Assembly (NCBI GenBank): GCA_024742875.1
Contig: JANSXP010000001.1
Location: 1 to 64,000, forward strand
Origin: Planctomycetaceae bacterium
Lineage (GTDB): Bacteria; Planctomycetota; Planctomycetia; Planctomycetales; Planctomycetaceae
Direction: 5' to 3'
Length of the DNA stretch: 64,000 nucleotides
Both the position numbers and the translations under genes were made by a program. Positions 1 through 56,211 of the stretch are shown piece after piece. The notes beneath the pieces are model-generated. The model worked only from the letters and a program-made list of their open reading frames with translations, searched no databases and was not told where the DNA came from. The first letter of the stretch is position 1. The number at the start of each line of letters is the position of its first letter.

Positions 1-2627
1 AGACGAACCCGCGCCAGCCACGGATTGGCGGCTGGAGTGCTCAGTACGTCGACAGCAAACGGACCCTGGTCGGGTCCCACAACAGGGGCGGTTGTGATTT
101 CCTGGGGCCAGCGAGGTGCTGTGCTGCGTTCGATGAGTCGCGGCAGATCGACCACATCCACCCGATCGGCTACCTGGTCGGCCAGCTCGTTGAGGCGTTC
201 GTTAGACAGATCGGCCGGCACGCTGGCCGTCCACACCACCAGGTCACGATCGGCCGGTGCGGCGTTCAGCTGCAGACACACGCGTTCGCCGTTGCGGATC
301 AGTTCACCGCGCTGATCGCCCAGCACGCCAACGAGCATCGCCTGCGGCGCTGTGCTGACTGCGTCACCGCTGACCACACGGGCGATGGCTGGCTGACGGC
401 CGGAGCCCGCAATCTTACCTTCTGTTGCGGACTTCAAATCCCAGTGACTGACGGGCTGGCCCGCGTTTTCTGCAAGTTGTTCCGGCGTGAGTTCCCGCCC
501 CCAGAAGGACACAGAAGTGATGTCCCCTTCAAAGGCCGATTTGCCCGGAAAATTGTCGGTCGTGTAACCGATCCGCGCGACCAGATCTTTGGTCACGTCC
601 GCAGGCCGCAGTGTGCCGCTGCCGCGTTTCTCACCATCGATGTAGAACGTGGCCACCCCGGATTTTCGATTCCAGGACAGCCCCACATCGTGCCACTGAT
701 CGTCATCCACGCGGCGTTTGGATCGCACCGCGCCCACCCAGCCGATGTCATAGCAAAGACGGCCGTCACGAATGAAAAACGTCTTGCCGTTGGGAATCCA
801 CGGGCCCGTTTTTGGACCTTTGGAGAAGATCGTGCCATCTCCCCGCGCCCGGATTCGGGCCGTGATGGTGAAATCGGACTGTGTCATATCGAACGGCTGA
901 CCGTTGTCGATCTGCAGCCAGGAACGGCCGCCAAACTGCGTTGTGGCGATCGGCTGACTGCCCGAGGGGCGAATCACGGCGAGCGTCTGACTCAGCGGAG
1001 TCAACGTGTCATCCTTCGGCACCGTGGCGACCAGCATTTGCTGACTCGACTGCGTGGGTCCCAGGTTGACAGTTCGGGAAAAGACGGTTGCCGGCTTGCT
1101 GTCCGTCGCATTGTCCGCAGACAGTTCATCCGCGCGATGGTGTTCGAGCACGCTCATGTCGCCCACCGTATAGGCCACCACGGAATGGGGACCAGCGGCA
1201 TACAGCCCGCGATATTGGGCCCAGTCGGTCGGCAGCGGACCGTACCTACGCCCATCCCGACCCGTCACGCGTGCGGTGTCGGCAAAGGAATCGGTGCCCG
1301 GTCGTGCCCAGCCAGGCCCCGTGGGGTTGGCCAGCTGTACGTCGCCAGAGATGCGAGGGTGTTTTCCGTGCCGGCCGTCAAAATGAATGCCCTGCCAGTT
1401 GATGAAACCCGAGGTCCGGGATCCTTCCGGTCGCACCCACGCGGCTGCGAGTCGGAGCGTATCGTGGTCGAACACCATCCACTGTTTCCCGCGTGCGATG
1501 CCGCCAGGTCCCGGATCCAGTCGGGAGGCGATCCCCTTGAAGGCGAAGTTCGAGCCATCGCTGCCGATCTCAAACGTATTCACCATCGTCGGGCCGTAGT
1601 CCATGTCGGACCACGGCGCGTATTCGACGGGTTCCGGACCGAACGTGTCTCCTGTGGGCAGCGAGGCCAGATAGTCGTCGGTCACCGCAACATACTGGTC
1701 CGCGTTGAGTGACCGGACGTACTTTTCACGGATGTAGTGCACCACGTCGTATTTCTGCTTTGGCACCATCCAGGTCTGCGGGACCATCAGCCCGAAACCA
1801 TGTGTCAGCGTTTTGTACATGGTGTGGGGATCGCCGCCGTGTTTGAATTTGCCCTCACCAAACCGCAGGGCTGTCGGCAGAGAACCGGGTCGATCTTTGG
1901 TGCCATGACAGTTCACGCACAACCGGTCATAAATCTGTTTGCCTCGCTGGAACGCGTCTTTGTCCAGCTTTTGAACCAGGCCCGCATGGTCCACGCGCTG
2001 CTCGTACTCCGGCAGTCGAAAGGCCACCAGCCCTGGCGGTGGCTGCAGCTTCCTGGCCGCCTCCGTACCCCCCGTCTGCAATTCCAGCACGTATCGCACC
2101 AGGTCCAGAAACTGCTGCCGACCCGTCATCTGATTGACGATCCCGGCCGGCATCACAGACACTTGAGAGTTGACCACTTCGTCAAGATCGGCTGTCGGCA
2201 CCAGCAGGCGATCTCCGCTGGCCGGATCTCGCAGCGTCACGCCTGCGTCCGTCTTGGTGACCAGCAGACCCGTGCGTGTGCGGCCGTCCGTCGTGACCAC
2301 AGACACAGTTTCGTAACCTTTGCGAATGCTGTCGGACGGCTTGAGAATTGATGTCACAATGTGCTGTCGCCAGTTGTCGGCGACATCGACACGTTTCGTC
2401 AGATCAGGCCCCAGAGCATTGCGACTGCCATCCACGGCGTGGCATTTGATGCAGCCGATATGCACCTGATGAAAGAGAATGGCGCCCTGCTGCGGATTAC
2501 CGGACTGCTGTGCTGCGCTGACCAGTGAGGCCGCCGATTCACCCTGCAGCCGGGTCTCCAGATTCTGGCCGCAGGCAGAGGAGACGCACAGCAGGACGGC
2601 AATGGCGGGAAAGCAGGATCGAATCAT
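1..2627 (-). CDS. Secreted two-heme c-type cytochrome with LamG-like domain (partial)
   Basis: The reverse-strand frame is open from ATG at 2627 to the window edge, so the 3' end is missing; at least 875 residues are visible. It starts with a signal peptide (MIRSCFPAIAVLLCVSSACG). A heme c motif CIKCH lies near residue 58 and a second, CVNCH, near 236, so two cytochrome c domains are predicted. Residues about 330-505 (around WSDMDYGP) resemble the planctomycete/verrucomicrobial region I recall as DUF6797; that name is from memory. Residues about 575-715 look like a LamG/concanavalin-like jelly roll (QWHDVGLSWN, ATFYIDGEK). Probably a periplasmic or surface redox protein; substrate unknown. 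It follows an FG-GAP protein gene on the same strand across a gap of about 100 bp, possibly one operon. Confidence 0.85.
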   Translation of the reverse strand, partial: MIRSCFPAIAVLLCVSSACGQNLETRLQGESAASLVSAAQQSGNPQQGAILFHQVHIGCIKCHAVDGSRNALGPDLTKRVDVADNWRQHIVTSILKPSDSIRKGYETVSVVTTDGRTRTGLLVTKTDAGVTLRDPASGDRLLVPTADLDEVVNSQVSVMPAGIVNQMTGRQQFLDLVRYVLELQTGGTEAARKLQPPPGLVAFRLPEYEQRVDHAGLVQKLDKDAFQRGKQIYDRLCVNCHGTKDRPGSLPTALRFGEGKFKHGGDPHTMYKTLTHGFGLMVPQTWMVPKQKYDVVHYIREKYVRSLNADQYVAVTDDYLASLPTGDTFGPEPVEYAPWSDMDYGPTMVNTFEIGSDGSNFAFKGIASRLDPGPGGIARGKQWMVFDHDTLRLAAAWVRPEGSRTSGFINWQGIHFDGRHGKHPRISGDVQLANPTGPGWARPGTDSFADTARVTGRDGRRYGPLPTDWAQYRGLYAAGPHSVVAYTVGDMSVLEHHRADELSADNATDSKPATVFSRTVNLGPTQSSQQMLVATVPKDDTLTPLSQTLAVIRPSGSQPIATTQFGGRSWLQIDNGQPFDMTQSDFTITARIRARGDGTIFSKGPKTGPWIPNGKTFFIRDGRLCYDIGWVGAVRSKRRVDDDQWHDVGLSWNRKSGVATFYIDGEKRGSGTLRPADVTKDLVARIGYTTDNFPGKSAFEGDITSVSFWGRELTPEQLAENAGQPVSHWDLKSATEGKIAGSGRQPAIARVVSGDAVSTAPQAMLVGVLGDQRGELIRNGERVCLQLNAAPADRDLVVWTASVPADLSNERLNELADQVADRVDVVDLPRLIERSTAPRWPQEITTAPVVGPDQGPFAVDVLSTPAANPWLARVR

Positions 2628-2730
2628 GGGATGTTCCGTCTTGTCTCAGAACAGGGGAAGGAAAACGGGCCGCGAACCCGGGGACAGCAGGCGGGGACCG
2701 GTGGAGTCACCGACATCGAGGGCTGCCGCT

Positions 2731-3945
2731 TTACTTCTGCAGCAGCACATTCACACCCTTCTTGTTGGACAGCACGATGTCCGGACGGCTGTCCCCATTC
2801 ATGTCCCGCACCTCGAACTGCGTGCCAATTCCTGTGCCGGAGCCGGCGGTAATGCGATGAGCGGTGAAGACCGGCGGTTGTCCGGGTGTCCGCTGAACCT
2901 CGTACCAGCACATCACCACTTCGTCGTTGCCACCCGGATCGTTGCCGTTGTGGGCAAAGAAGCGTTTGCCGGTGACGTAGTCCATCTGGCCGTCTCCGTT
3001 AATATCAGCTCGCTCCATGGCGTGCGTCTGCGAAAACGACTTGTCGATTTCGTGCAGCACCCATTGGTCTCCCCGATTTTCCGCCCACCAGACGCCATAC
3101 GCGTGGGCCGAACTGAAAATCAGATCCGCATCGCCATCGACGTCAAAATCGTCCGCATAGATGTTGGCACAGCCCGGCAGCGGCTGGCCGTCAACACGAA
3201 TGGGATGGAAGGTCCACACGTCCTTTGAGGCTGTGTTGCCAGGGGACTGCCACCAGCCGTGCGCAATGATGATGTCCTCGTGACCGTCGCCGTTGACATC
3301 ATCCACTCCCAGTCCGTGGTAGTATTTGAAGGTGCCGTTATCCAGTCCCCGGCGTTTGTCTTCTTTGCTCGGTTCACTGATCGGCTGAAAACCGGCTTGT
3401 GACTGTGTGATGTCCACAAAGCCCATTTGGGACTGCGGTTGAGAGCCAAAGACAAATTCCGGCGTGCCGTCGCCATTGAGGTCTTCGAATTCGGGTGACT
3501 CATTGCAGATGCTGGACCAGATGTTGTGTTCCTGCCACGGGCCTCCCTGAGCCCCTGGATTCTGATACCACGCAAACGGGTCTCCGGGAAAGCCAATGAT
3601 GACCACGTCCGGCCAGCCGTCGGCGTTCATGTCCCAGGTGGCATTGGCAAAACTGTTGCTGTAGCCTTTGCCCGCGACGAACTCGCCCGGCATGCGGATT
3701 TCGTTCATCGTCCACCGCGCGGCATCCGCATAGTCGCCCTCCGACGGCGCCTGATACCAGACGTCGCCGGCCGCCACGTCCAGCACGCCATCTTTGTTGT
3801 AGTCGCCGGCGGTCACACCCTCGGAGCGAAACCGTTCGTCCAGCTTGATTCTCACCCAGCTGGTATCGTCATCCGCCTGCAGGCAGGACAGGGCACAGCA
3901 CAACAGAAGACCAGCAGGACCAACACGTAAAGCACGCAGTTTCAT
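2731..3945 (-). CDS. Secreted FG-GAP/VCBS repeat beta-propeller protein
   Basis: This 404-residue protein begins with a signal peptide (MKLRALRVGPAGLLLCCALS). It carries about seven calcium-loop repeats of the D-x-N-x-D-G type: DYNKDGVLD, DMNADGWPD, DLNGDGTPE, DVNGDGHED, DFDVDGDAD, DINGDGQMD and DMNGDSRPD. Such repeats form an integrin-alpha-like beta-propeller that binds calcium outside the cytoplasm. No catalytic motif was recognised. It lies upstream of and on the same strand as the two-heme cytochrome gene, so co-expression is plausible. Its start faces the divergent arylsulfotransferase-like gene, with about 220 bp between the chosen starts. Role unknown; binding or scaffolding is inference. 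Confidence 0.85.
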   Translation of the reverse strand: MKLRALRVGPAGLLLCCALSCLQADDDTSWVRIKLDERFRSEGVTAGDYNKDGVLDVAAGDVWYQAPSEGDYADAARWTMNEIRMPGEFVAGKGYSNSFANATWDMNADGWPDVVIIGFPGDPFAWYQNPGAQGGPWQEHNIWSSICNESPEFEDLNGDGTPEFVFGSQPQSQMGFVDITQSQAGFQPISEPSKEDKRRGLDNGTFKYYHGLGVDDVNGDGHEDIIIAHGWWQSPGNTASKDVWTFHPIRVDGQPLPGCANIYADDFDVDGDADLIFSSAHAYGVWWAENRGDQWVLHEIDKSFSQTHAMERADINGDGQMDYVTGKRFFAHNGNDPGGNDEVVMCWYEVQRTPGQPPVFTAHRITAGSGTGIGTQFEVRDMNGDSRPDIVLSNKKGVNVLLQK

Positions 3946-4166
3946 CAGTGTTCTCGCAGGCAGGGATGGCGAAGGAGAGGAGGATCACGCTTTATCCTAG
4001 CCAGGTGCGGCACCAAAAAACGAGTGTGCGGGCCGCCCGTCCGGGTCAAACGGGTGGTCACAGCCGTCCGACACTCGACACGCCTGGGCACGCCGGACAG
4101 AATGGAGCGTTGCTGAACCAAGCGGAGCGTTCCGGCAGGGTGGCCACAGGCGTGTTTGAGGCGGGC

Positions 4167-5669
4167 ATGAAACGGTCACACATATTGTTGCTCTGGCTGC
4201 TGTGTGCAGCGGCCTGCGCTCAGGACAAACAGGAGCCTCTGCCACCGTTGCCGACGGTCGGTGTCACGCTGAAGGCCGCTGAAGCGACGCCCGGCTATAC
4301 GCTGATTTCTCCGCTGAGTACCAATCGCGTGTTTCTGCTGAATAACGATGGACTGGTGGTTCATTATTGGGACACCGATCGCAAGCCGGGACAGTCTGCC
4401 TATTTGCTGGAAGACGGGACGCTGGTGCGGGGCGGTAAGGTGCAGAACTTCTTTCAGTTTCCCTCGACCACCGGCAGTGGCGGCAGCATTCAGAAGTATG
4501 ACTGGGACAGCAACCTGCTGTGGAGTTTCGTCTCCAGTTCTCAGTTTCGCATGAGTCACCACGACATTGAACCTCTGCCCAATGGCAACATTCTGTGCAT
4601 CGTGTGGGAGTCCTATCTGAAGGAAGTGGCCGTCAAAGCGGGCCGCGATCCGGAACGACTGCAGGGCGAAGTGCTGTGGTTCGAAGCCATCTTTGAGCTG
4701 AAACCCAAAGGGGACAGTGAGGCGGACATCGTCTGGAAGTGGAGTCTGCTGGATCACGTGGTGCAGAACCTTGACGAAGACGCAGACAACTTCGGACAGC
4801 CAGCCGAACATCCGGAGCTGGTCGACATCAACTTTATGCATCGCCCCGTGGCCGACTGGATTCACATGAATTCCATCGACTACAACGAAAAGCTGGACCA
4901 AATTGTGGTGGGCTCGCGAACCTTCAGTGAGTTCTGGATCATTGATCACAGCACCACAACAGACGAGGCCAAAGGACACACGGGCGGACGCTATGGTCAC
5001 GGCGGAGATCTGCTGTATCGCTGGGGCAACCCGCGCGCCTGGGGCATGGGTGATTTCGACGATCGTCAGCTGTTCAATCAGCATGACGTGCACTGGATTC
5101 CCGAGGGCCTGCCGGGCGCCGGTCATATCCTGCTGTTCAATAACGGACTGCAGAACACCGAACAGAATTTTTCTTCCGCCGATGAACTGGTACTCCCTCA
5201 GAATGAGGATGGTACTTATCGTCGGGCTGACGGCCGCGCTTTTGGTCCGGAAAAAGTCTCGTGGACGTTCGAGGATCCAGGCAATCTGTTCTCCCCCCGG
5301 ATTTCCGGCGCACAAAGACTGCCCGGTGGCAATACGCTGATCTGCAGCGGCACCCAGCATCTGCTCGTGGAAGTGACGCCCAATGCGCGACCGGTGTGGT
5401 CTTACAAGAATCCACCCCGTTTTCGTCATCCGCCTCCTGTCAACCGCACCGGCCGACCGTCTGACTCTCAGCGCAAACCCAGCTTATCTGATGTGCCCGA
5501 AGAACGACTGAAGTCCATTCGCATCAAAGGGGGCGTGCCTCTGGAAGATGGCGGCACGATGTTTCGGGCAATCAAATACCCTGCCGATTATCCGGCGTTT
5601 GCTGGCAAAGATCTGAGCGTCAAAAACGTCCCGCGGCCGCAGCTGGAACTGCCACGCGTGAGTCAGTAG
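4167..5669 (+). CDS. Secreted arylsulfotransferase (ASST)-like protein
   Basis: I chose ATG 4167 because a signal peptide follows at once (MKRSHILLLWLLCAAACA); the frame is open upstream to 3948, but that stretch is Arg/Pro-rich and unlike a protein N-terminus. The mature part is a beta-propeller-like protein with ASST-family phrases: SHHDIEPLPNGNILCIVWES, HMNSIDYNEKLDQIVVGSR, QHDVHWIPEG and GAQRLPGGNTLICSG. About 500 residues. The family includes PQQ-independent aryl sulfate sulfotransferases, but planctomycete paralogues are largely uncharacterised, so sulfotransfer is a family-based guess. Gly-Asn-rich W-W propeller blades are clear. It converges with the NHL gene. Confidence 0.8.
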   Translation: MKRSHILLLWLLCAAACAQDKQEPLPPLPTVGVTLKAAEATPGYTLISPLSTNRVFLLNNDGLVVHYWDTDRKPGQSAYLLEDGTLVRGGKVQNFFQFPSTTGSGGSIQKYDWDSNLLWSFVSSSQFRMSHHDIEPLPNGNILCIVWESYLKEVAVKAGRDPERLQGEVLWFEAIFELKPKGDSEADIVWKWSLLDHVVQNLDEDADNFGQPAEHPELVDINFMHRPVADWIHMNSIDYNEKLDQIVVGSRTFSEFWIIDHSTTTDEAKGHTGGRYGHGGDLLYRWGNPRAWGMGDFDDRQLFNQHDVHWIPEGLPGAGHILLFNNGLQNTEQNFSSADELVLPQNEDGTYRRADGRAFGPEKVSWTFEDPGNLFSPRISGAQRLPGGNTLICSGTQHLLVEVTPNARPVWSYKNPPRFRHPPPVNRTGRPSDSQRKPSLSDVPEERLKSIRIKGGVPLEDGGTMFRAIKYPADYPAFAGKDLSVKNVPRPQLELPRVSQ

Positions 5670-31500: not shown

Positions 31501-31731
31501 GCCGGCCGCGAGTCGCGGCGGACGGAGGCGTTTTGGGGTCGACCAGCAGGTGACGTCTCTGCGCCGACTCGCGTCGCTGCGCTTACTCGTTGCTGCGCTG
31601 CGACAATCGAGCTGGCACCGCGCTTCACCGGCCGCTGGCCGAACGTTGCGGCGGACGGTGGCGATGTGGTGTCGAGACTTAGTTGTTGTCTCCGCGCCAA
31701 GCCGCGTCGCTTACTCGTCGCAGACGGGCGG
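31501..31731 (+). repeat. Repeat cluster R1 (two diverged units)
   Basis: It begins immediately after the DUF1501 stop and runs forward to the stop of the converging fusion gene. Conserved blocks match the other clusters: GCGGCGGACGGAGGCGT, GTCTCTGCGCCGACTCGC, and CTGCGACAATCGAGCTGGCA followed by CCGCGCTT. The second unit is more diverged. Orientation is the same as the gene it follows. Confidence 0.65.
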
Positions 31732-47318: not shown

Positions 47319-49616
47319 CTAAATCCAGCGCCGGGATGGCGCAGCGGTGGCCACAGAGGTCAATACATCCAGATCCAGCTGCAGCGAACGGGACAGTCGC
47401 AGGATAAAAGCGAACCCCACGGCTCCGAGGATGCTCAGAATCTTCAGCGTCAGCGAAAGATGGGGATCGTTGGCCTCCTGAGTGGTCAGCAGAATCATGA
47501 TTCCGGCGGCCGGAACGCCACCAGCCAGATACAGTGACCAGGCCGACTGCGTCGACAGACGTTCAAGTTGCGCGGCGTCCTGCTCCGTCATGCGAGCGTC
47601 ATCCATCAGTGGTGGCAGGAAGGCCCGCAGACTCAGCGTGGTGGTCAGAAAAAATGGATAAGCGGCCGCCAGCAGGCCACAAATCAGCAGCGATGCAAAA
47701 AAGTGCACGTACCACTGTGCATCGAGACTCCCCAAAATTCCGTGCATCGCGGCGGGATACGCCACACCGGCGATGACCCATTCGGTGATGCCCAGAATTG
47801 TCACAAACCGGCCCAGCTGAAAAGCGCGCGTCCGCGCCGCTCGGCAGTCGTTTGCTGACAGCAGGCGTCGCCGCAGCGCCAGCACAATTGGGCGGCAGTA
47901 CCAGATGCAGCAGGCAATGCCAATGGGAAAGGCGATGGCGTTGATCGTCAGCACAACCGACATGAATTTCTTTTTCAGCACTTCAGTGGACGCCTCGTCC
48001 GCGCTTTGCTGTTCCAGTTCGGCAATGATGGCCTGGTCGTTGTAAAACAGGTTGAAGGCGGCCCCCAGTATGTGGGGCGAGATCGCGGCAATCAGAAACG
48101 CGACGGTCGGCCAGACGGCCGCGCGTTTTTTCCAGCCCGACCGACTGTTCTGACGCAGCTGAGTCACCCGCGGCTGCAGACACAAACCCAGCGCCTGAGC
48201 CAGCTGGGAAGCGCTCGTGAACCGCGCACCCGGCTCGGGGGCGAGGCATTTCTCGAGGATCTCGTGCAACTGTAACTCGACGGCGGCCGTCAGCCGCCGG
48301 GGCGGCTCTCCCACTCCCCGTCGCCGCAGCGCGGCCATGGCGGTCACCGTTTCCGTCCAGTCTCCCGTGATGTCGTCGTCCGCAAAGGGCCGTTGTCCAT
48401 AACACAGCTCCCAGAGCACGACACCCAGTGAATAAATGTCGCTGCGACCATCCAGATCCGTCGGCGCTGTGGGACTGTTGACGTTGCAGGCATCCAGCTG
48501 TTCGGGCGACATATACGCCAGGCTGCCGCCGAAATTTTCCGCCGCATTGGCGTCTTCCACTTCCGAACTAAAACTGATGTTGAAGTCCGCCAGTTTGGCC
48601 CGCCCATGGGCGTCCAGCAAAACGTTGGCCGGCTTCACATCCCGATGCAGCGTCTTTTCGCCATGCGCATAATGCAGCGCTTCGGCCAGTTCACCGCCCA
48701 GCTGGCACACGGCTTCCGGCCATGATTTCTCCGCCAGGCCGCCGTCGAGCGCGATGTTGTCGGACGTCAGCACGCCCGTGCGATCGACCGCTTCGGCCAC
48801 ACATTCCATGACCAGCCGACCCGTTTTCTGCGGCCGACTTCTGCCCGTCTTAATCACCGACTGCAGTGTCCCGCCGGGAGCAAACTGCATGTACAGCAGA
48901 CGCAGGTTCTGATCGGGCAGTCGATGCTGATCATACACACGGACTATGTGAGGATGATCGAGCCTTGCCAGCGTTTGCGCCTCTTCTCCTTTGTCACTGG
49001 AGATCTTCAGCGCCACCATTCGCTGCATGGAAATCTGCCGCGCCAAAAACACGCTGCCAAAAGCACCCGCTCCGAGTGCCGACATCAAATAGAAGTCGTC
49101 AATCTGTTCGCCCGTCTGAAATGTCTCTGAGAGCCTGTCTCCCGACATCGACATCGTGCTGGTGGCTTCCAGCTGAAACACACGATTGATGTCCGCCAGT
49201 CGATCGGGGAAACGCGCCAGACAGTCGGCCACGTCCACGTCGTCACCCGCGTTCTTACGGACATGGTACTCTTCGTAGATCAGCTCCGCCGGCACGCCAT
49301 CCGGCTGACCGAGCTCGGGAATCTCTTCCAGGTAATCTTCCAGTCGGAGCACGGGCACGTCGGCCCCATGACGATACTCCAGGTCTACCTTGATCAGTTC
49401 CACCAGCACCATACGTCGCAGATCAGCGTCCGCCTCAGGCAGATGGTCCACCAGACGCGGCCCGAAACCGTTCGCCTCCCACTCACCCAGAAACGATTCC
49501 AGGTGGCTCATCACCACTTCAAAGCGGGCGTCCGCAGTATCCTGCTGCAGGGACGAATGCTGGTGGGTTTCCTGATCTGTCTGCGATCTTTGCTCGGGTT
49601 CGTTCATCCGACCCAT
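47319..49616 (-). CDS. Membrane Ser/Thr protein kinase (DFN variant)
   Basis: A 765-residue kinase. Residues 1-150 resemble the N-terminal segment of planctomycete kinases linked to ECF sigma factors (VELIKVDLEYRHGADVPVLR, LEDYLEEIPELG). The kinase domain (about 170-470) has GAGAFGSVFLAR, VALKI (ATP Lys), HRDVKPANVLLD near 322 and DFNIS near 343, where DFG is expected, then YMSPEQL and DIYSLGVVLWELCYG. Five or six hydrophobic helices follow (about 490-760: VAFLIAAISPHILGAAFNLF, FASLLICGLLAAAYPFFL, ILSILGAVGFAFILRL), placing the kinase in the cytoplasm. Start is ATG 49616 or 49607; neither has a clear ribosome binding site. It is divergent from an ECF sigma gene 150 bp away. Confidence 0.9.
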   Translation of the reverse strand: MGRMNEPEQRSQTDQETHQHSSLQQDTADARFEVVMSHLESFLGEWEANGFGPRLVDHLPEADADLRRMVLVELIKVDLEYRHGADVPVLRLEDYLEEIPELGQPDGVPAELIYEEYHVRKNAGDDVDVADCLARFPDRLADINRVFQLEATSTMSMSGDRLSETFQTGEQIDDFYLMSALGAGAFGSVFLARQISMQRMVALKISSDKGEEAQTLARLDHPHIVRVYDQHRLPDQNLRLLYMQFAPGGTLQSVIKTGRSRPQKTGRLVMECVAEAVDRTGVLTSDNIALDGGLAEKSWPEAVCQLGGELAEALHYAHGEKTLHRDVKPANVLLDAHGRAKLADFNISFSSEVEDANAAENFGGSLAYMSPEQLDACNVNSPTAPTDLDGRSDIYSLGVVLWELCYGQRPFADDDITGDWTETVTAMAALRRRGVGEPPRRLTAAVELQLHEILEKCLAPEPGARFTSASQLAQALGLCLQPRVTQLRQNSRSGWKKRAAVWPTVAFLIAAISPHILGAAFNLFYNDQAIIAELEQQSADEASTEVLKKKFMSVVLTINAIAFPIGIACCIWYCRPIVLALRRRLLSANDCRAARTRAFQLGRFVTILGITEWVIAGVAYPAAMHGILGSLDAQWYVHFFASLLICGLLAAAYPFFLTTTLSLRAFLPPLMDDARMTEQDAAQLERLSTQSAWSLYLAGGVPAAGIMILLTTQEANDPHLSLTLKILSILGAVGFAFILRLSRSLQLDLDVLTSVATAAPSRRWI

Positions 49617-49765
49617 ACGCTTTGGCGTGCCTGTGCGACTTAACGTGCCCTGTGCGCCGGAAAGATGGTCGCCTGCTTCGCTGGTGCCGGTCGCTCACCA
49701 GTGGATGTTGCCTGCCGCCATGGTACCATACGGCCTCCGGAATACGATTCTTTAAAGAGTGGGAA

Positions 49766-50383
49766 ATGAGCGAATACGAAGACGATCCGGTCCTCAAGCA
49801 GGGGATCCGTGAGGGCAGCGTGGATTCTCTGGCCGCTTTTATCGAGGCGACACGCAAACCGCTGATCGCGTTTATCAACCGCCGCCTCGGAGACGCACTT
49901 CGCTCCAAAGTGGAAGTCGATGACATCTTTCAGGAAGTCAGTGCCGAAGCCATTCGCTCCATTACCCCGGAGTTCCCCGGCGAACGCGAACCGTTCTCCT
50001 GGCTGTGTCACATCGCCGAACGCAAGATCGTCGACGCACACCGACATCACTTCGAAGCCAAAAAACGAGATGCCGGCAAAGAACGCGTTCTGGACGCTGG
50101 CCCCGGCAAAGGGGGCGATGGCGGCGGTGGACTGGTCAACATGCTTGTCAAAAGCATGACCACCCCCAGCGCCGCCTTCTCCCGCAATGCCCGCGAAGCG
50201 CGCCTGCACGAAGCCATCGGACGCCTCAGCGAAGATCAGCAGTCCGCCATCCGCATGAAATACATCGAAAACAAACCGTCCAAAGAAATCGCTGAAGCCA
50301 TCGGCAAATCAGACGCCGCCGTCCGCGTCATGCTTACCCGCACCATGAAACAACTCCACGAAATCCTCGACGCACAGGAATAG
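49766..50383 (+). CDS. ECF-type sigma factor
   Basis: Start at 49766 (MSEYEDDPVLKQ) has a purine-rich RBS (AAAGAGTGGG); the frame extends upstream but is not sigma-like. 205 residues: region 2 (FINRRLGDALRSKVEVDDIF followed by QEV, then FSWLCHIAERKIVDAHRHHF) binds core RNA polymerase and the -10; region 4 (LSEDQQSAIRMKYIENKPSK, then a helix-turn-helix with AVRVMLTRTMKQLHE) binds the -35. It belongs to the planctomycete ECF sigma factors that accompany Ser/Thr kinases, and the divergent kinase is its likely regulator. No anti-sigma gene is adjacent. A repeat array starts at the base after its stop codon. Confidence 0.92.
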   Translation: MSEYEDDPVLKQGIREGSVDSLAAFIEATRKPLIAFINRRLGDALRSKVEVDDIFQEVSAEAIRSITPEFPGEREPFSWLCHIAERKIVDAHRHHFEAKKRDAGKERVLDAGPGKGGDGGGGLVNMLVKSMTTPSAAFSRNAREARLHEAIGRLSEDQQSAIRMKYIENKPSKEIAEAIGKSDAAVRVMLTRTMKQLHEILDAQE

Positions 50384-50707
50384 CCGGGATGCCCCGGCGG
50401 GCGGTGGCGTGGGGTGGTCGATGAAAATGGCAAGTCTCTGCGCCGGGTCGCTCTCTTCGTTCGCTGCGACAGTTGGGGTGGTACCGCGCCTGACCGGGAT
50501 GCCTGGCGGACGGTGGCGTGGATGGCCGATGAAAATGGTGAGTCGCTGCGCCAGGCTAATCTCTTTGTTCGCTGCGACAATCGAAGTGGCACCGCGTTTG
50601 AGCGGGGACGCCCCGGATGGGTGGTCGTGTGAATCGGTCGACAAAAATGGGAAATTGCTGCGATAGCTGTTCGCTGCGCGAATCGAAGTGTCGCCACGTG
50701 TGACTGG
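50384..50707 (+). repeat. Repeat cluster R2 (three units, about 110 bp each)
   Basis: Direct repeats start at 50384, 50494 and about 50603, the first immediately after the sigma factor stop. Blocks shared by units: CCGGGATGCCCCGGCGGGCG, GGTCGATGAAAATGG, TCTCTGCGCCGGGTCGC and TTCGCTGCGAC. The third unit is diverged. Frames inside (such as LFVRCDNRSGTAF) are considered non-coding. Confidence 0.85.
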
Positions 50708-50782
50708 AAATGATGGTCCGGCGTGCAGGACAATCCTGGCGGCACGTTGATCGCTGCCAGCACAAAAAGGATACGACTGACA

Positions 50783-51055
50783 ATGAACAACAAGACCGTG
50801 ATGTTTATTTACGCCATTGGCGGACTGGCCACGGGCAGCATGATTGAGCCGTGGCTGAAAAATAAGAACCCCATCACGCGCAATGCCCAGTTGGCGATCA
50901 GCGGCGTGGCCATCGTGCTGATCGTCGGTCTCGTCTGGATGTTTTTGAAAGCCGCGCGGGGAGCGAAAAACGGGCAGTCGGCGATGACCGCCTACACACT
51001 GCCGGTGGTGTCTGCCGCCCTGTTTCTGTTTGGCATCGGCCTGCTGCTGTTTTGA
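50783..51055 (+). CDS. Small membrane protein, unknown function
   Basis: Ninety residues, starting with MNNKTVMFIYAIGGLATGSM and a purine-rich RBS (AAAAAGGA). Three hydrophobic segments are seen (MFIYAIGGLATGSMI, LAISGVAIVLIVGLVWMFL, VVSAALFLFGIGLLLF) with polar loops. Not recognised. It is isolated between two repeat arrays of opposite orientation (R2 and R3). Composition and hydrophobic pattern support a real gene rather than a shadow. Confidence 0.75.
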   Translation: MNNKTVMFIYAIGGLATGSMIEPWLKNKNPITRNAQLAISGVAIVLIVGLVWMFLKAARGAKNGQSAMTAYTLPVVSAALFLFGIGLLLF

Positions 51056-51094
51056 ATCGATGCCCGTCCGTTCCGCGAATTGTCAGATCCCCAA

Positions 51095-51534
51095 AGGCTC
51101 TCGGCCCTGAAGTTCAGAGAGATCAAAGAGATCGGCTTAGCGCAGCGACTCGCCATTCATTCGGCCATCCACACCACCGTCCGCCTGGGTATCCTGGCCG
51201 GAAGCGCGGTACGACCCCAACTGTCTTAGCGAACGAAGAGAGCGGCTCGGCGCAGCGACTTTGCCCTTTCGTCGACCGACCCACGCCACCGCCCGCCGGG
51301 GCTTCCCGGCCGCAAGCGCGGTGCCACCTGGGTTGTCTTAGCGAACGAAGAGAGCGACTCGGCGCAGGGACTTAGGCTTTTCGTCGATTGACCCACACCA
51401 CCGCCCGCCGGGGCTTCCCGGCCTGAAGCGCGGTGCCACCTGGGTTGTCTTAGCGAACGAAGAGAGCGACTCGGCGCAGAGACATGCCATTTTAGTCGAC
51501 TGACCCACGCCACTGCCCGCCGGGGCTTCCCGGC
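51095..51534 (-). repeat. Repeat cluster R3 (four units, reverse orientation)
   Basis: Four head-to-tail units with a period of about 110 bp, reading on the reverse strand. Conserved blocks (reverse strand): GGCCGGGAAGCCCCGGCGGG, GGTGGCGTGGGTCGGTCGAC, CGCTCTCTTCGTTCGCTAAG, ACAACCCAGGTGGCACCGCG. The first unit encodes the last codons of the upstream gene. The distal unit (about 51095-51200) is most diverged. Confidence 0.88.
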
Positions 51535-52388
51535 CTGAAGTCGGTATGAAAGCGTGTCAGGAGTGCTTTTTCGTTGGCGGGGACCAGGTACAGTTTGCCG
51601 CGGATGGTTTTGGTTTCTCCGGGGTTGAGCCCGCCGATGCGGAAGTCGTTGTGCAGGCAGGTGATGACGCCCTGAAAGATCTCCTGATAGGGTTCCCAGG
51701 CGACGGCGAGGATCATTGATTCGTCTTTGCTGTAGCAGCCGGTCAGGGAGTGAGAGGGTCGCAGGGGGCTGAGGGGTCTGGGATTGACGTCATTCAGATC
51801 GACTCCGGGGGCGGCGTAGACCTGTCCTGGGATGTAGCGGGCCGTGGTGGTCCACGGCTGGGTGGGCAGCCGCCGGATTTTGCCATCCAGCAGCAGAAAG
51901 CATTTGCGGATGTAGGGCGGATAGGTTTCGCGGGCGTCTTTGTTGTCCGTGCCGGTGAAGCCATCGATCCGCATGCAGGGCTGGGCCCAGTGCGCCTGCG
52001 AGACGGTATCCGTGGGATTGTGGGCGGTGACGGTGAAGGTGACGCTGTCGTGATCGGAGGTGATCAGATGTTTGACGATGACGCCGTCATGGAGCCGATC
52101 TTCGATTTCGAGACGCTGATCCGTGGCGGAGATCAGCTGACTGTCGTGCGGGATGACGGTTTCTTTCCAGTCCCGATCGGTGGAGCCAGGACGGCAATAG
52201 GCTTCCAGATAGTGCGTGCGAATAGGGCCGCCGGGAATGTCCTCACCGTGCACTTCGAGATATCGATCTTTCCAGGTGATGGTCAGGGGAGCGGGATCAT
52301 CAGCGTGCACACAGGCGGACAGCAGCAGGGCGGGGAACGTGAATCGCAGGAGGCTGATTCGGTGCGGAAAACTGAGAAGACGCATCAA
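51492..52388 (-). CDS. Secreted protein of unknown function, C-terminus within repeat
   Basis: A 298-residue protein with an N-terminal signal segment (ISLLRFTFPALLLSACVHA; the Cys may be a lipobox). The body is beta-rich (LTITWKDRYLEVHGEDIPGG, THYLEAYCRPGSTDRDW, VTFTVTAHNPTDTVSQAHW, MILAVAWEPYQEIFQGV). It is not recognised; similar sequences appear in planctomycetes to my memory, but I cannot name a family. The last residues (about RPGSPGGQWRGSVD) come from repeat unit 1 of cluster R3, which also supplies the TAA stop: in that unit GTCGACTAA replaces the usual GTCGACGAA. Confidence 0.75.
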   Translation of the reverse strand: MMRLLSFPHRISLLRFTFPALLLSACVHADDPAPLTITWKDRYLEVHGEDIPGGPIRTHYLEAYCRPGSTDRDWKETVIPHDSQLISATDQRLEIEDRLHDGVIVKHLITSDHDSVTFTVTAHNPTDTVSQAHWAQPCMRIDGFTGTDNKDARETYPPYIRKCFLLLDGKIRRLPTQPWTTTARYIPGQVYAAPGVDLNDVNPRPLSPLRPSHSLTGCYSKDESMILAVAWEPYQEIFQGVITCLHNDFRIGGLNPGETKTIRGKLYLVPANEKALLTRFHTDFRPGSPGGQWRGSVD

Positions 52389-52522
52389 TTCACTCCCCTT
52401 CGCTGGCGACAGTATGTGGCAGACAGCCGGTTAGCACCGTAATCGCAACCAACGGCTTCGTCGAGTGTTTCGCTTTTGTTCTGGTATGTGCGGCTCAGAG
52501 TCGCGTTCCCGCGGATCGCCCA

Positions 52523-52813
52523 GGCGCAGTGCTATGTTTGTCGTAGCGAACAACGGCTAAGCAGAGCGACGCGGTCCAGCGCAGCGACTTTGCCTTTTCG
52601 TCGACTGACCCACGCCACCGCCCGCCGGGGCATCCCGGTCAGGCGCGGTGCCATTCTGGTTGTCGTAGCGAACAACGAGAGCGGCTCGGCGCAGCGACTT
52701 TGCCTTTTCGTCGACTGACCCACGCCACCGCCCGCCGGGGCGTCCCGGCTCGGCGCAGCGACGTACCATTTTCATCAACCATCCACGTCACCGCCCGCCG
52801 GGGCGTCCCGGCC
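52523..52813 (-). repeat. Repeat cluster R4 (three units, one shortened)
   Basis: Reverse-strand units of the same family. Two are about 110 bp; the one nearest the gene is shortened to roughly 60 bp, lacking the second half. They share GGGACGCCCCGGCGGGCGGT, GGCGTGGGTCAGTCGACGAA and GTTCGCTACGACAACCAGAA. The first unit encodes the last codons and stop of the YaiI-family gene. The adjoining 52389-52522 holds no recognised feature. Confidence 0.86.
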
Positions 52814-53260
52814 CCGGCCGATGGCTGAGATGAGTTTGTCGATTTGGTTGGCGAATTTTTGTTTGTCTTTGGGGGAGTAGGGGGGTGGGCCGCCGAGTTG
52901 GGCGCCGGCGGCGCGGAACTCTTCGAGGAAGTTGCGGGTGGCCAGGCGGGAGCCGATGTTGTTTTTGTCGAGCAGATCGCCGCGGGGTTCGACCACGTAG
53001 GCGCCTTTGGCGATGACGTCGCTGGCGAGGGGGATGTCGGCCGTGATGACCAGATCACCGGGGTGAACCTGTTCGGCGATTTTCTGGTCGGCCACGTTGG
53101 CGCCGGCTTTGACCAGTTGAAAACGGATGACGTCCGAGCGGGGAATGTGGACGGGTGAGTTGGCCACGAGCGTGAGGGGGATGCCCGTGCGGCGGGCGAC
53201 GTTGAACATCACGTCTTTGACGTCGGACGGGCAGGCGTCTGCATCGATCCACATCTGCAT
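52775..53260 (-). CDS. YaiI/YqxD-family (DUF188) protein
   Basis: Start at 53260 (MQMWIDADACPSDVKDVMFN) matches the family's conserved N-terminus; the longer open frame to 53917 is a shadow of the esterase gene. 161 residues. The acidic DADACP motif, the central LVANSPVHIPRSDVIRFQLV, VVTADIPLASD-like segment (LVITADIPLASD) and FLEEFRAAGAQLGGPPPYSP are all typical of UPF0178/YaiI proteins, a PIN-domain-like fold of unproven function. The last ten residues (DAPAGGDVDG) are encoded by repeat cluster R4. It follows the esterase gene by 14 bp, so they are probably cotranscribed. Confidence 0.92.
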   Translation of the reverse strand: MQMWIDADACPSDVKDVMFNVARRTGIPLTLVANSPVHIPRSDVIRFQLVKAGANVADQKIAEQVHPGDLVITADIPLASDVIAKGAYVVEPRGDLLDKNNIGSRLATRNFLEEFRAAGAQLGGPPPYSPKDKQKFANQIDKLISAIGRGRDAPAGGDVDG

Positions 53261-53274
53261 GGGGAGAGTCCGAT

Positions 53275-54165
53275 TTACGGGGCAGGCTGCAGAAAGTCGT
53301 TGGCCTTCAGCCAGTCCGCCAGACGATTGGGCCATGTGCCCAGGACCGGGTCGGATTGTGCCAGTCCGACGCCGTGGCGCCCTTTCTGATAAACGTGCAG
53401 TTCGCAGTTGATGTTGTGCTGGCGGAGGGCCGTGTAGAAGGCCAGTGCGTTTTCGACGGGGACCGCTTTGTCTTCGGTGGTGTGAAACAGAAAGGTGGGC
53501 GGTGTGTCGGCCGTGACTCTTTTTTCGTTGGACAGCAGTGCCACCAGGTCCGCGTTGTCGTAGCGATCTTTGCCGAGCAGGTTGCGGCGAGATCCTTTGT
53601 GGGTGAAGGCTTCGTCCATGGTGATGACGGGATAGCAGAGGATGGCAAAATCCGGCCGGCTGCTGAGCTGGTCGATGGGGTCCGGAGCGGACGGGTTGCC
53701 GGCGTCGAAATGTGTGGCGGCGGTGGAGGCCAGATGGCCGCCGGCGGAAAAGCCCCAGATGCCGATGCGGGCAGGATCGACGCCTGCGGTACCCGCCTGG
53801 TGGCGGACCGTGCGAATGGCGCGGAGGACATCGCCTTTTTGAATGGGGTGATGGTAGTTGGCGGAGCCCAGGCGATAGCGGAGGATCCAGGCGCTGATGC
53901 CGCGTTTGTTCAGCCACGCGGCGATCTGTGCGCCTTCATGATCCATGGCCAGGCCGCCGTAGCCGCCGCCCGGGCAGACCACCACGCCGCAGCCGTTGGC
54001 TGTGGCTTTGTCGGCCGGGTGAAACTGCAGGGCGGGGGTGTCGCGATCGGACGTTCCATGAGCCCCGGGAGCCCCGTTGGGCCACAGCGGTTTCCAGTCA
54101 GCCGCCGGCAGAGGGACTGCCAGCAGGGTGAGCAGACAGACAGTCAGAGGCAGGACCGTTTTCAT
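53275..54165 (-). CDS. Secreted alpha/beta hydrolase (acetylxylan esterase-like)
   Basis: A 296-residue protein with signal peptide MKTVLPLTVCLLTLLAVPLP. Hydrolase motifs: CPGGGYGGLAMDHEG (oxyanion region), GIWGFSAGGHLAS (nucleophile Ser), HTTEDKAVPVENA (acid) and YQKGRHGVGLA (catalytic His). The arrangement matches the BD-FAE/acetyl-xylan-esterase-like group common in planctomycetes. It probably removes ester groups from polysaccharides in the periplasm. The gene lies between the parvulin gene and the YaiI gene on the same strand. Confidence 0.9.
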   Translation of the reverse strand: MKTVLPLTVCLLTLLAVPLPAADWKPLWPNGAPGAHGTSDRDTPALQFHPADKATANGCGVVVCPGGGYGGLAMDHEGAQIAAWLNKRGISAWILRYRLGSANYHHPIQKGDVLRAIRTVRHQAGTAGVDPARIGIWGFSAGGHLASTAATHFDAGNPSAPDPIDQLSSRPDFAILCYPVITMDEAFTHKGSRRNLLGKDRYDNADLVALLSNEKRVTADTPPTFLFHTTEDKAVPVENALAFYTALRQHNINCELHVYQKGRHGVGLAQSDPVLGTWPNRLADWLKANDFLQPAP

Positions 54166-54239
54166 GGCAGTGGCTTCGCTGGACGGGGCGGGGGTGGCAG
54201 GAACAAGCCGTGTTGGCAGGCGTGGCCGAATGCTGACGG

Positions 54240-54521
54240 CTACTCGGATCGGGCGGTGACTTCCAGCAGGTGATAGCCGAACTGAGTTTTGACAGGGCCG
54301 TGCACGGTATTCAGGGCGTCGTTGAAGACGACGGTGTCAAATTCGGGCACCATCTGGCCTTTGGAAAACGTTCCCAGGTCGCCGCCTTTGGCGCCGGAGG
54401 GGCACTGGCTGTGTTCTTTGGCCAGTTCAGCGAAGTCGGCACCGCCTTCAATCTGTGTTTTCAGGTCCTGACACTGGGCTTCTTCAGGAACAAGGATGTG
54501 GCGTGCAGATGCGGTTGGCAT
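54240..54521 (-). CDS. Single-domain parvulin peptidyl-prolyl isomerase
   Basis: Ninety-three residues, the same size as PpiC of E. coli, and no signal peptide, so cytoplasmic. Family motifs: ARHILVPEEAQCQDL, FAELAKEHSQCPSGAKGGDL, GTFSKGQMVPEFDTVVF and FGYHLLEV. Two His residues (ARHILV and FGYHLL) are the usual active-site pair and Cys41-like residue is present in HSQCPSG. It catalyses cis/trans isomerisation of prolyl peptide bonds. A GGAAAG ribosome binding site precedes ATG. It may lead the parvulin-esterase-YaiI set (74-bp gap). Confidence 0.92.
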   Translation of the reverse strand: MPTASARHILVPEEAQCQDLKTQIEGGADFAELAKEHSQCPSGAKGGDLGTFSKGQMVPEFDTVVFNDALNTVHGPVKTQFGYHLLEVTARSE

Positions 54522-54819
54522 GATGGTCTTTCCATGCAGAGGGTTTCAAAGTGAACCTGACAGGCTAACAGGCCCTTTGCTCATCAGCGACCCAGGCACG
54601 TCATTCCTCCATTTTTGGGACGAAGTGTGCCCGCAGGCCGGCACGAATCTGGTCACAGCGGCGGACCAGGCGATTTCGCGTTTAATCCACCGGCAGCCGG
54701 CGGAAATCAGACAGTCATTTGGTTTACTTCTGAGACCGACTGCCTATCTTTCTGCACAGCCGTCGACGCCGGCTGTGCTGCTGTGATTCGCCCTTTATCC
54801 AACTGACGAAAACGATTCC

Positions 54820-56211
54820 ATGCCATTGAAACGTATTGCCGCTCTGCTGAAGGACGCTCAGCCGGAAGAATCTGTGGTCATCAAGGGCTGGGTGAGGACA
54901 CGTCGTGACTCCAAGAACGGATTCTCCTTCGTGGAAGTCAACGACGGCAGTTGCATGAGCAACATTCAGATCGTGGTGGACGCGGAGGTTCCCGGCTACG
55001 AAGACACGATTAAGTCGGTGACCACTGGCGCCAGCGTGGCCATCAACGGGACGGTGAAGGAATCTCCCGGCAAGGGGCAGCGGATTGAGATTCACGCCAC
55101 GTCACTGGAGGTGCTGGGATTGGCGGATCCGGCCAGTTTCCCACTGCAGAAAAAGGGGCACAGCTTTGAGTTTCTGCGTGAGATCGCTCACCTGAGACCG
55201 CGGTCGAATTCGTTTGGCGCAGTGGCTCGTGTCCGCAACTGCATCAGTCGGTCGATCCACAACTTCTTTCAGTCCCGCGGCTTTGTGTATGTCAACACGC
55301 CGATTATCACGACCAGCGACTGCGAAGGTGCGGGTGAGATGTTTCAGGTGACCACGCTTAACCTGGAACGCATTGCCGAAGTGCAGACCAAAATCGACTG
55401 GAAGCAGGACTTCTTTGGCAAGCCGGCGTCGCTGACGGTGAGCGGTCAGCTGGAAGCGGAAACCTACGCCACGTCGGTGGGCGACTGCTACACGTTTGGC
55501 CCCACGTTTCGCGCGGAAAACAGCAACACGACGCGCCATCTGGCCGAATTCTGGATGGTGGAACCGGAGATGCCGTTTTACGAACTCGATGACAACATGG
55601 ATCTGGCCGAAGCGTTCATCAAGCAGATGGTGAACGACTGTCTGGACGAGTGTCCTGAAGACATGGAGTTCTTCAACAAGCGGATCGACAAGACGGTTCT
55701 GGAAACGCTGGAGAACATTCGCAGCAACGAGTTCATCCGTCTGCCCTACACGGAAGCCGTGGAGCTGCTGCAAAGCTGCGGGAAGAAGTTTGAGTATCCG
55801 GTGGAGTGGGGCACGGACCTGCAGAGCGAGCACGAACGCTACCTCACCGAAGAGCACTTCAAACAGCCCGTGATCCTGTACAACTACCCGCGCAGCATTA
55901 AGCCGTTCTACATGCGGTGTAATGACGACGGCAAGACGGTGCGTGCGATGGACGTGCTGGTGCCTCGAGTGGGTGAGATCATCGGCGGCAGTCAGCGTGA
56001 AGAACGGCTGGATGTGCTGCTGTCCCGCATCGAAGAGTGCGGTATGGATCCGGAAGAGTACTGGTGGTATGTCGACCTGCGACGCTTCGGCTCTGTTCCT
56101 CACAGCGGCTTTGGGCTGGGTCTGGAGCGTGCCGTGCAGCTGATTACCGGGATGACCAACATTCGCGACGTCATTCCCTTTCCGCGGACGCCAGGCCACG
56201 CCGAATTCTAA
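54820..56211 (+). CDS. asnS: Asparaginyl-tRNA synthetase
   Basis: A 463-residue class IIb synthetase charging tRNA-Asn. The N-terminal OB-fold anticodon-binding domain ([25 protein letters not shown]) precedes the catalytic core: [20 protein letters not shown], motif 2 [20 protein letters not shown], and motif 3 [20 protein letters not shown] followed by [14 protein letters not shown]. The residues GAGEMFQV and SGQLEAE, and ending in PFPRTPG, separate AsnS from AspS. Length is normal for the family. It stands alone, divergent from the parvulin gene, with no T-box or other leader recognised. Confidence 0.96.

Follow-up and report, generated by a model that had tools for sequence, protein, structure and literature searches.

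In the window analysed here, a single stretch of 64,000 nucleotides, two genes end inside copies of a dispersed repeat that supplies their last codons and their stop codons. The repeat probably represents a genus-restricted, REP-like family that has dispersed to gene 3' ends, nearly always running in the direction of the gene and capping or tailing the encoded protein. The genome from which the window comes is called G000 below and its siblings in the same genus G001 to G007; L numbers denote extracted loci. All four arrays of the window lie at gene ends (Table 1); those at 50384 and 31506 abut the end of the gene, or nearly so, and the other two give rise to tails.

Table 1. Repeat arrays of the window, the genes next to them and the tails that they encode
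Feature	Position	Strand	Basis
Array D, two copies; same-strand gene ends with TAA 6 nt upstream	31506..31711	+	nhmmer, array list
Sigma-70 family (ECF-like) gene, start codon uncertain	49766..50383	+	PF08281, PF04542
Array A, three copies, directly after the TAG of the sigma-factor gene	50384..50699	+	nhmmer, array list
Array B, four head-to-tail copies, the last partial, after the secreted-protein gene	51108..51533	-	nhmmer, array list
Uncharacterised, probably secreted protein gene, 298 aa	51492..52388	-	ORF list
Repeat-encoded tail PGSPGGQWRGSVD and stop TAA of the secreted protein	51492..51533	-	
Array C, three copies, the first shortened to ~65 nt, after the YaiI gene	52522..52811	-	nhmmer, sequence split
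YaiI/YqxD (DUF188) gene, 161 aa	52775..53260	-	PF02639, NCBIfam NF001095
Repeat-encoded tail GRDAPAGGDVDG and stop TGA of YaiI	52775..52811	-	

The first of the two tailed proteins, which matches nothing in Pfam at E 0.001 or in NCBIfam at E 0.01, has its final 13 residues and its stop inside the repeat, the C-terminus reading DF followed by RPGSPGGQWRGSVD and the stop (translation of 51492-51560, minus strand: LTRFHTDFRPGSPGGQWRGSVD and stop). In the YaiI protein the final 11-12 residues and the stop are encoded in the same way, AIGR being followed by GRDAPAGGDVDG (52775-52840, minus strand: DKLISAIGRGRDAPAGGDVDG and stop). The repeat heads were placed by nhmmer at 51533 and 52811, both on the minus strand, and relative to these starts the stops finish at +42 and +37, which places the two readings of the head in different frames. 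This had been proposed in the initial annotation of the window, and the translations of both minus-strand ends agree with it. The change from GAA to TAA to which that annotation had traced the first stop is likewise present, the copy at 51533 reading GAC-TAA and the next two copies of the array GAC-GAA. Orthologues that lack the repeat yet end in the same residues had been set as the refuting observation; repeat residues were found at the C-terminus of none of the 18 repeat-free orthologues of the secreted protein and none of the 26 of YaiI. The head pattern was absent from the loci of these orthologues and of the 60 described below, as searched with strict regular expressions that recovered 5 of the window's heads. 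The secreted-protein orthologue in G004 stops two residues beyond DF (DFAK and stop), and the YaiI orthologues of G001, G002, G003 and G007 stop at residue 151, the repeat junction lying at residue 150. At array A, the G003 orthologue of the sigma-factor gene stops at the identical residue. Between the facing arrays A and B there is a plus-strand ORF of 110 aa at 50723-51055.

The repeat unit and its arrays

The 43 nt that had been named as the repeat are indeed part of it, but the true unit is ~110 nt long and has sharp ends. A profile made from the window copies detected 180 copies in 412,015 bases of G000 (the window and 48 loci), grouped into 92 arrays, each on one strand and of 1-5 copies. 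In 56 of the 92 arrays there are 2-5 copies arranged head to tail. Of the 83 arrays with 60 nt of sequence beyond, 72 have a final copy that extends to model position 107-110 of 110, which marks a sharp 3' boundary. The unit opens with a hairpin, CCGGGAYGCCCCGG or compensated forms of it, and closes with ...GCACCGCGCYT. Among 83 copies one pair of the head stem is GC in 46, CG in 32 and broken in 5, while a second stem pairs the head with the middle of the unit (97.1% of cells pair); the covariation score for these copies was reached by 0 of 500 shuffles. In sibling genomes the equivalent stem reads CCGAG..CTCGG. Folded singly as RNA, four stretches of the window showed no unusual stability in comparison with shuffles (z +0.76, -0.20, -1.82 and -0.91), and the run of U/T that characterises an intrinsic terminator was found 3' of the head hairpin neither in the window arrays nor in the alignment. 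The idea that the repeat is designed to terminate every frame was rejected, since the inner copies are poor in stops, with 61-73% of frames open against 41-46% in mononucleotide shuffles.

Some units carry an extra palindrome, of the GGCCGCGTTGC-ACGCGG or CCGCTGCTGCG-CAGCTG type, in a constant place (alignment A1, ~columns 36-55; for example L050:152-281 and L065:4003-4141), as if a second small hairpin had been plugged into the loop. Many arrays lie at contig ends, among them those of L048, L054, L057, L066, L069 and L103. The repeat has therefore probably interrupted the assembly, which would make the copy count an underestimate.

Head-only duplications, mosaic units and partial heads beside full ones occur in the arrays and, together with tandem growth, are consistent with a family that spreads without a transposase, by recombination or gene conversion between arrays and short look-alikes at gene ends. 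Recombination at random points would not give the sharp ends that are shared by the single-unit arrays (36/92), and spread by this route is considered unlikely. Most likely the repeat is a non-autonomous mobile unit that would be copied by some enzyme and enter gene ends in one direction, tandem copies then arising by local duplication.

Arrays, stop codons and protein tails

Enough upstream sequence was available to assess 79 arrays, a hexamer coding score above 75 being taken as a gene; the score was trained on 218 long ORFs of these sequences, the neighbours of the arrays included. A same-strand coding gene precedes 64 of the 79 (binomial p 2e-8 against one half), and 60 of the 79 begin at the 3' end of such a gene, its stop lying -20 to +61 nt from the head. 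Of the 64, 42 have the stop at -20 to +1 nt and abut the gene; in 18 the stop is inside the array at +5 to +61, and 16 of these are real tails; the remaining four arrays lie farther off, 63-276 nt downstream of the stop. Read-through was dropped at L105, a GcvH gene whose stop coincides with that of its orthologues, and at L058, where the stop falls 5 nt into a truncated head. The recurrent creation of C-terminal tails that had been suggested from the two window genes is thus borne out, the 16 arrays adding 5-20 residues each, but the tail is not the usual outcome, a head within 20 nt after the stop being the commoner case. At L049 (4478-5396), L052 (4524-5648) and L053 (4090-4561) two arrays lie tail to tail between converging genes, each oriented like its own gene.

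A recognisable same-strand gene was missing before 15 of the 79 arrays, and none of these showed strong-scoring read-through. Scans of the 12 loci that hold them showed no RNA gene ahead of them, with no tRNA and no Rfam match at the gathering score. In the window itself (49000-55000) Rfam gave one chance-level match, outside the arrays, at 20.9 bits against a cut-off of 60.

The comparison with orthologues covered 60 ends from sibling species, found among the matches listed for 25 of 30 queried genes; for the other five genes there was no orthologue among the matches listed. In the abutting class (14 genes, 28 orthologues) the end difference is 0 in 19 orthologues and -2 to +4 in the rest. 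In the tailed class, GcvH excluded (10 genes, 29 orthologues), the orthologue ends 0 to +10 residues past the junction in 26 cases; the three others are orthologues of a tailed sodium:solute symporter and extend +23 to +27 past it. The difference is negative in 0 of the 29. With the two window genes, 12 of the 16 tailed genes have been compared in this way. In both classes, therefore, the junction falls where the gene natively ends, before or after the stop. Insertion near the stop with loss of the original terminator had been proposed for the window genes. The orthologue ends, which lie near the junctions, support this, but no displaced native end was found downstream of six arrays (the peptides are short and one stretch is only 15 nt), so plain insertion and replacement are not separated.

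These positions can be read as two outcomes of one process. A unit joined at or just after the native stop would leave the protein unchanged. One joined a few codons earlier would remove the native end and its stop, and the ribosome would be expected to enter the head and to add a tail of 5-20 residues; such tails are probably a by-product that selection trims. The arrival of the unit by transposition, or by a related form of copying, is the presumed starting point in both cases.

The genes that carry tails include, by Pfam, those for LeuA (L094), a class-V aminotransferase (L051), a class-III aminotransferase (L062), a DEAD helicase (L104), a sigma-54 activator (L060) and YaiI. The frame that gives GRDAPAGGG-like peptides (offset mod 3 = 1) is used by 10 of the 18 stops inside arrays. 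The LeuA-type gene (L094:13757-15019) ends in three successive head-derived pieces, GRDAPTG-GRDAPTG-GRDAPAGEGVE. In all 16 tailed arrays the frame of the gene meets a stop within the first 62 nt; of the two remaining frames in these units, 4 of 32 do (Fisher 2e-9), a comparison that depends on the tailed class having been defined by stops up to +200 nt; in abutting arrays, all frames taken together, 31 of 126 close within this distance. When read-through beyond +200 nt was looked for, the single candidate was ambiguous: at L063 the frame, scoring 29, stays open to +458, and the opposite strand scores 59. A quick in-frame stop is thus far commoner than chance, and long tails are probably selected against. 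The GAA to TAA change of the window is one example of a private stop in a tailed gene.

With 16 tailed arrays in part of one genome, the family offers a countable and replicated case of a spreading repeat that alters protein ends. Because a single unit has landed at many genes, it amounts to a natural experiment in which position, frame and choice of stop can be set side by side and selection for an early in-frame stop can be measured. There is also a warning for annotation, since in this genus the repeat is the source of C-termini such as GRDAPAGGGVDG.

The contact between gene and repeat is close. In 22 of the 42 abutting arrays it is at 0 to -2 nt (stops at -2 to +1), which leads us to lean towards targeting of the ORF end over later selection. 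The stops of the 42 abutting genes are TAG in 24, TAA in 15 and TGA in 3, those of 151 background genes TGA in 71, TAG in 44 and TAA in 36; TAG or TAA is therefore used by 39/42 as against 80/151 (Fisher p 6e-7 for TGA). The subtypes of the head lean to different stops, CCGGGAn heads following 13 TAG, 1 TAA and 2 TGA and CCGGGGG heads 5 TAA, 2 TAG and 1 TGA. Both the deficit of TGA and this leaning would fit a copying machinery that recognises the ORF end, either as a TAR stop in its context or as the 3' end of the transcript, and homes to it one way. This is offered as a tentative suggestion with the odds against it; if it were true, the stop codon would either belong to the target or be brought in by the element.

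The same positions bear on a doubtful, if serious, alternative, namely that the arrays are working parts of the 3'-UTR which end transcription, protect the 3' end of the mRNA or slow the ribosome at the stop, that selection placed them there and that the tails are side effects. The fixed direction with respect to the gene, the hairpin directly after the stop and the covariation in the head and in the second stem all speak for such a role, as does the lowering of translation by E. coli REPs at 15 nt or less from stop codons, given in passages of PMC12306157 with reference to an earlier study. Selection alone need require neither contact at 0 to -2 nt nor tolerance of 16 tails, and the presence of the repeat is not conserved, the head being absent, by the strict pattern, at 60 orthologous gene ends. 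The ordinary stability of the single-sequence folds and the missing U run also argue against a role of this kind. Placement of a mobile unit at gene ends remains the preferred reading.

Distribution in the genus and candidate mobilisers

Matches to the repeat were found by blastn in 7 of 8 genomes of the genus and in 0 of 50 others. The exact head pattern has 49 sites in G000 and 6 in G004, and none in 78 genomes of the family outside the genus. A covariance-model search that scored 150 candidates per genome, so that its copy numbers are lower bounds, accepted 147 of the 150 in G000, 28 in G004, 22 in G003, 10 in G005, 4 in G001, 2 each in G002 and G007 and 0 in G006. Seven identical matches in G004 (from 1102789 on) overlap Y2 transposase genes and are probably not members, so the figure of 28 is too high.

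The position at gene ends was also seen in the siblings, where 26 first heads were judged. A same-strand gene scoring above 60 precedes 14 of them (from G001, G003, G004, G005 and G007), of which 10 abut the stop (TAG 7, TGA 3), 2 are tailed and 2 lie farther away. Two more, in G002 and G007, are at positions 0 and -2 behind genes scoring 47 and 56. The score is below 40 for 10 of the 26, including three copies inside an IS91-type element. This element of 2.9 kb (L130, G004:C1:1864000-1870000, at 1367-4270; also L149 and L150) has a Y2 transposase beside a second long minus-strand ORF and is present in G004 in three near-identical copies; the repeat heads, one per copy, look like passengers. 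At L117 (G001) and L122 (G007) each head is preceded by an open frame of 480 aa; the two frames have similar final bases and an identical TAG, perhaps reflecting one old insertion common to the two species.

No positive link was obtained with any of three candidate mobilisers. For a Y2/IS91 transposase (PF04986) there is no match in G000, 19 rows in G004 and 2 rows in G005, and without PF04986 in G000 the family did not qualify as a non-autonomous IS91-type element. Reverse transcriptase is represented in G000 by 4 RVT_1 rows, one of them under the cut-off. The third candidate, a RAYT (Y1 HUH transposase), belongs to a further explanation, namely that the repeats are genuine GTAG REPs mobilised in trans by a RAYT since lost from G000. 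Such a history would account for a hairpin beside TAG and a position after genes, GTAG REPs being reported often to provide the TAG stop (passages of PMC3733652), and Y1_Tnp (PF01797) matches do occur in 6 of the 8 genus genomes. No match was found in G000, which is richest in copies, or in G007, and in 20 sibling Y1 loci, of 30 matches listed, the head motif was absent by the strict pattern, so that no RAYT flanked by the repeat was seen. In the 22 visible abutting TAG cases of G000 the base before TAG is C in 15, A in 7 and G in 0, a single GTAG occurring in sibling locus L136, and the inner copies are without the TAG tag. The explanation is accordingly regarded as improbable.

Comparison with other repeats at gene ends

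Repeats that supply stop codons are already known in the form of REPs. In passages of PMC3733652, GTAG/CGTC REPs are described as dispersed palindromes found mostly after genes, some at the ends of coding regions, and conv-REPs as lying less than 20 bp from 3' ends. Like these REPs and BIMEs, the present repeats are palindromic and lie near gene 3' ends. This family differs from GTAG REPs in its unit of ~110 nt, its one-way head-to-tail order, the want of an invariant GTAG and a host genome, G000, without a Y1 transposase, and on these grounds it has not been filed as a REP. The palindrome of a GTAG REP measures 20-40 bp; the covarying head hairpin here is ~14-16 nt and sits within the longer, sharply ended unit. 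In place of the opposite-orientation pairs of BIMEs, the copies group on the same strand. E. coli REPs close to stop codons share with this family a hairpin directly after the stop, the sequence being different. About 11% of E. coli REPs lie within 15 nt (passages of PMC12306157), whereas here 42 of the 64 arrays that follow a same-strand gene lie within 20 nt. No earlier description of the present repeat family was found in the open-access papers searched.

The mycobacterial interspersed repetitive units (MIRU) are likewise directional tandem units that sit on the stop and start codons of adjoining genes; they probably differ in sequence, occur within operons and re-establish coupling with the gene that follows. 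Unlike MIRU so described, many of the present arrays are found between convergent genes or ahead of a gene that has its own spacer. The addition of residues to proteins is shared with the RPE of Rickettsia, mobile palindromic repeats which, according to passages of PMC3733652, do so within ORFs and at N-termini; in the present family the additions are C-terminal and come with a new stop.
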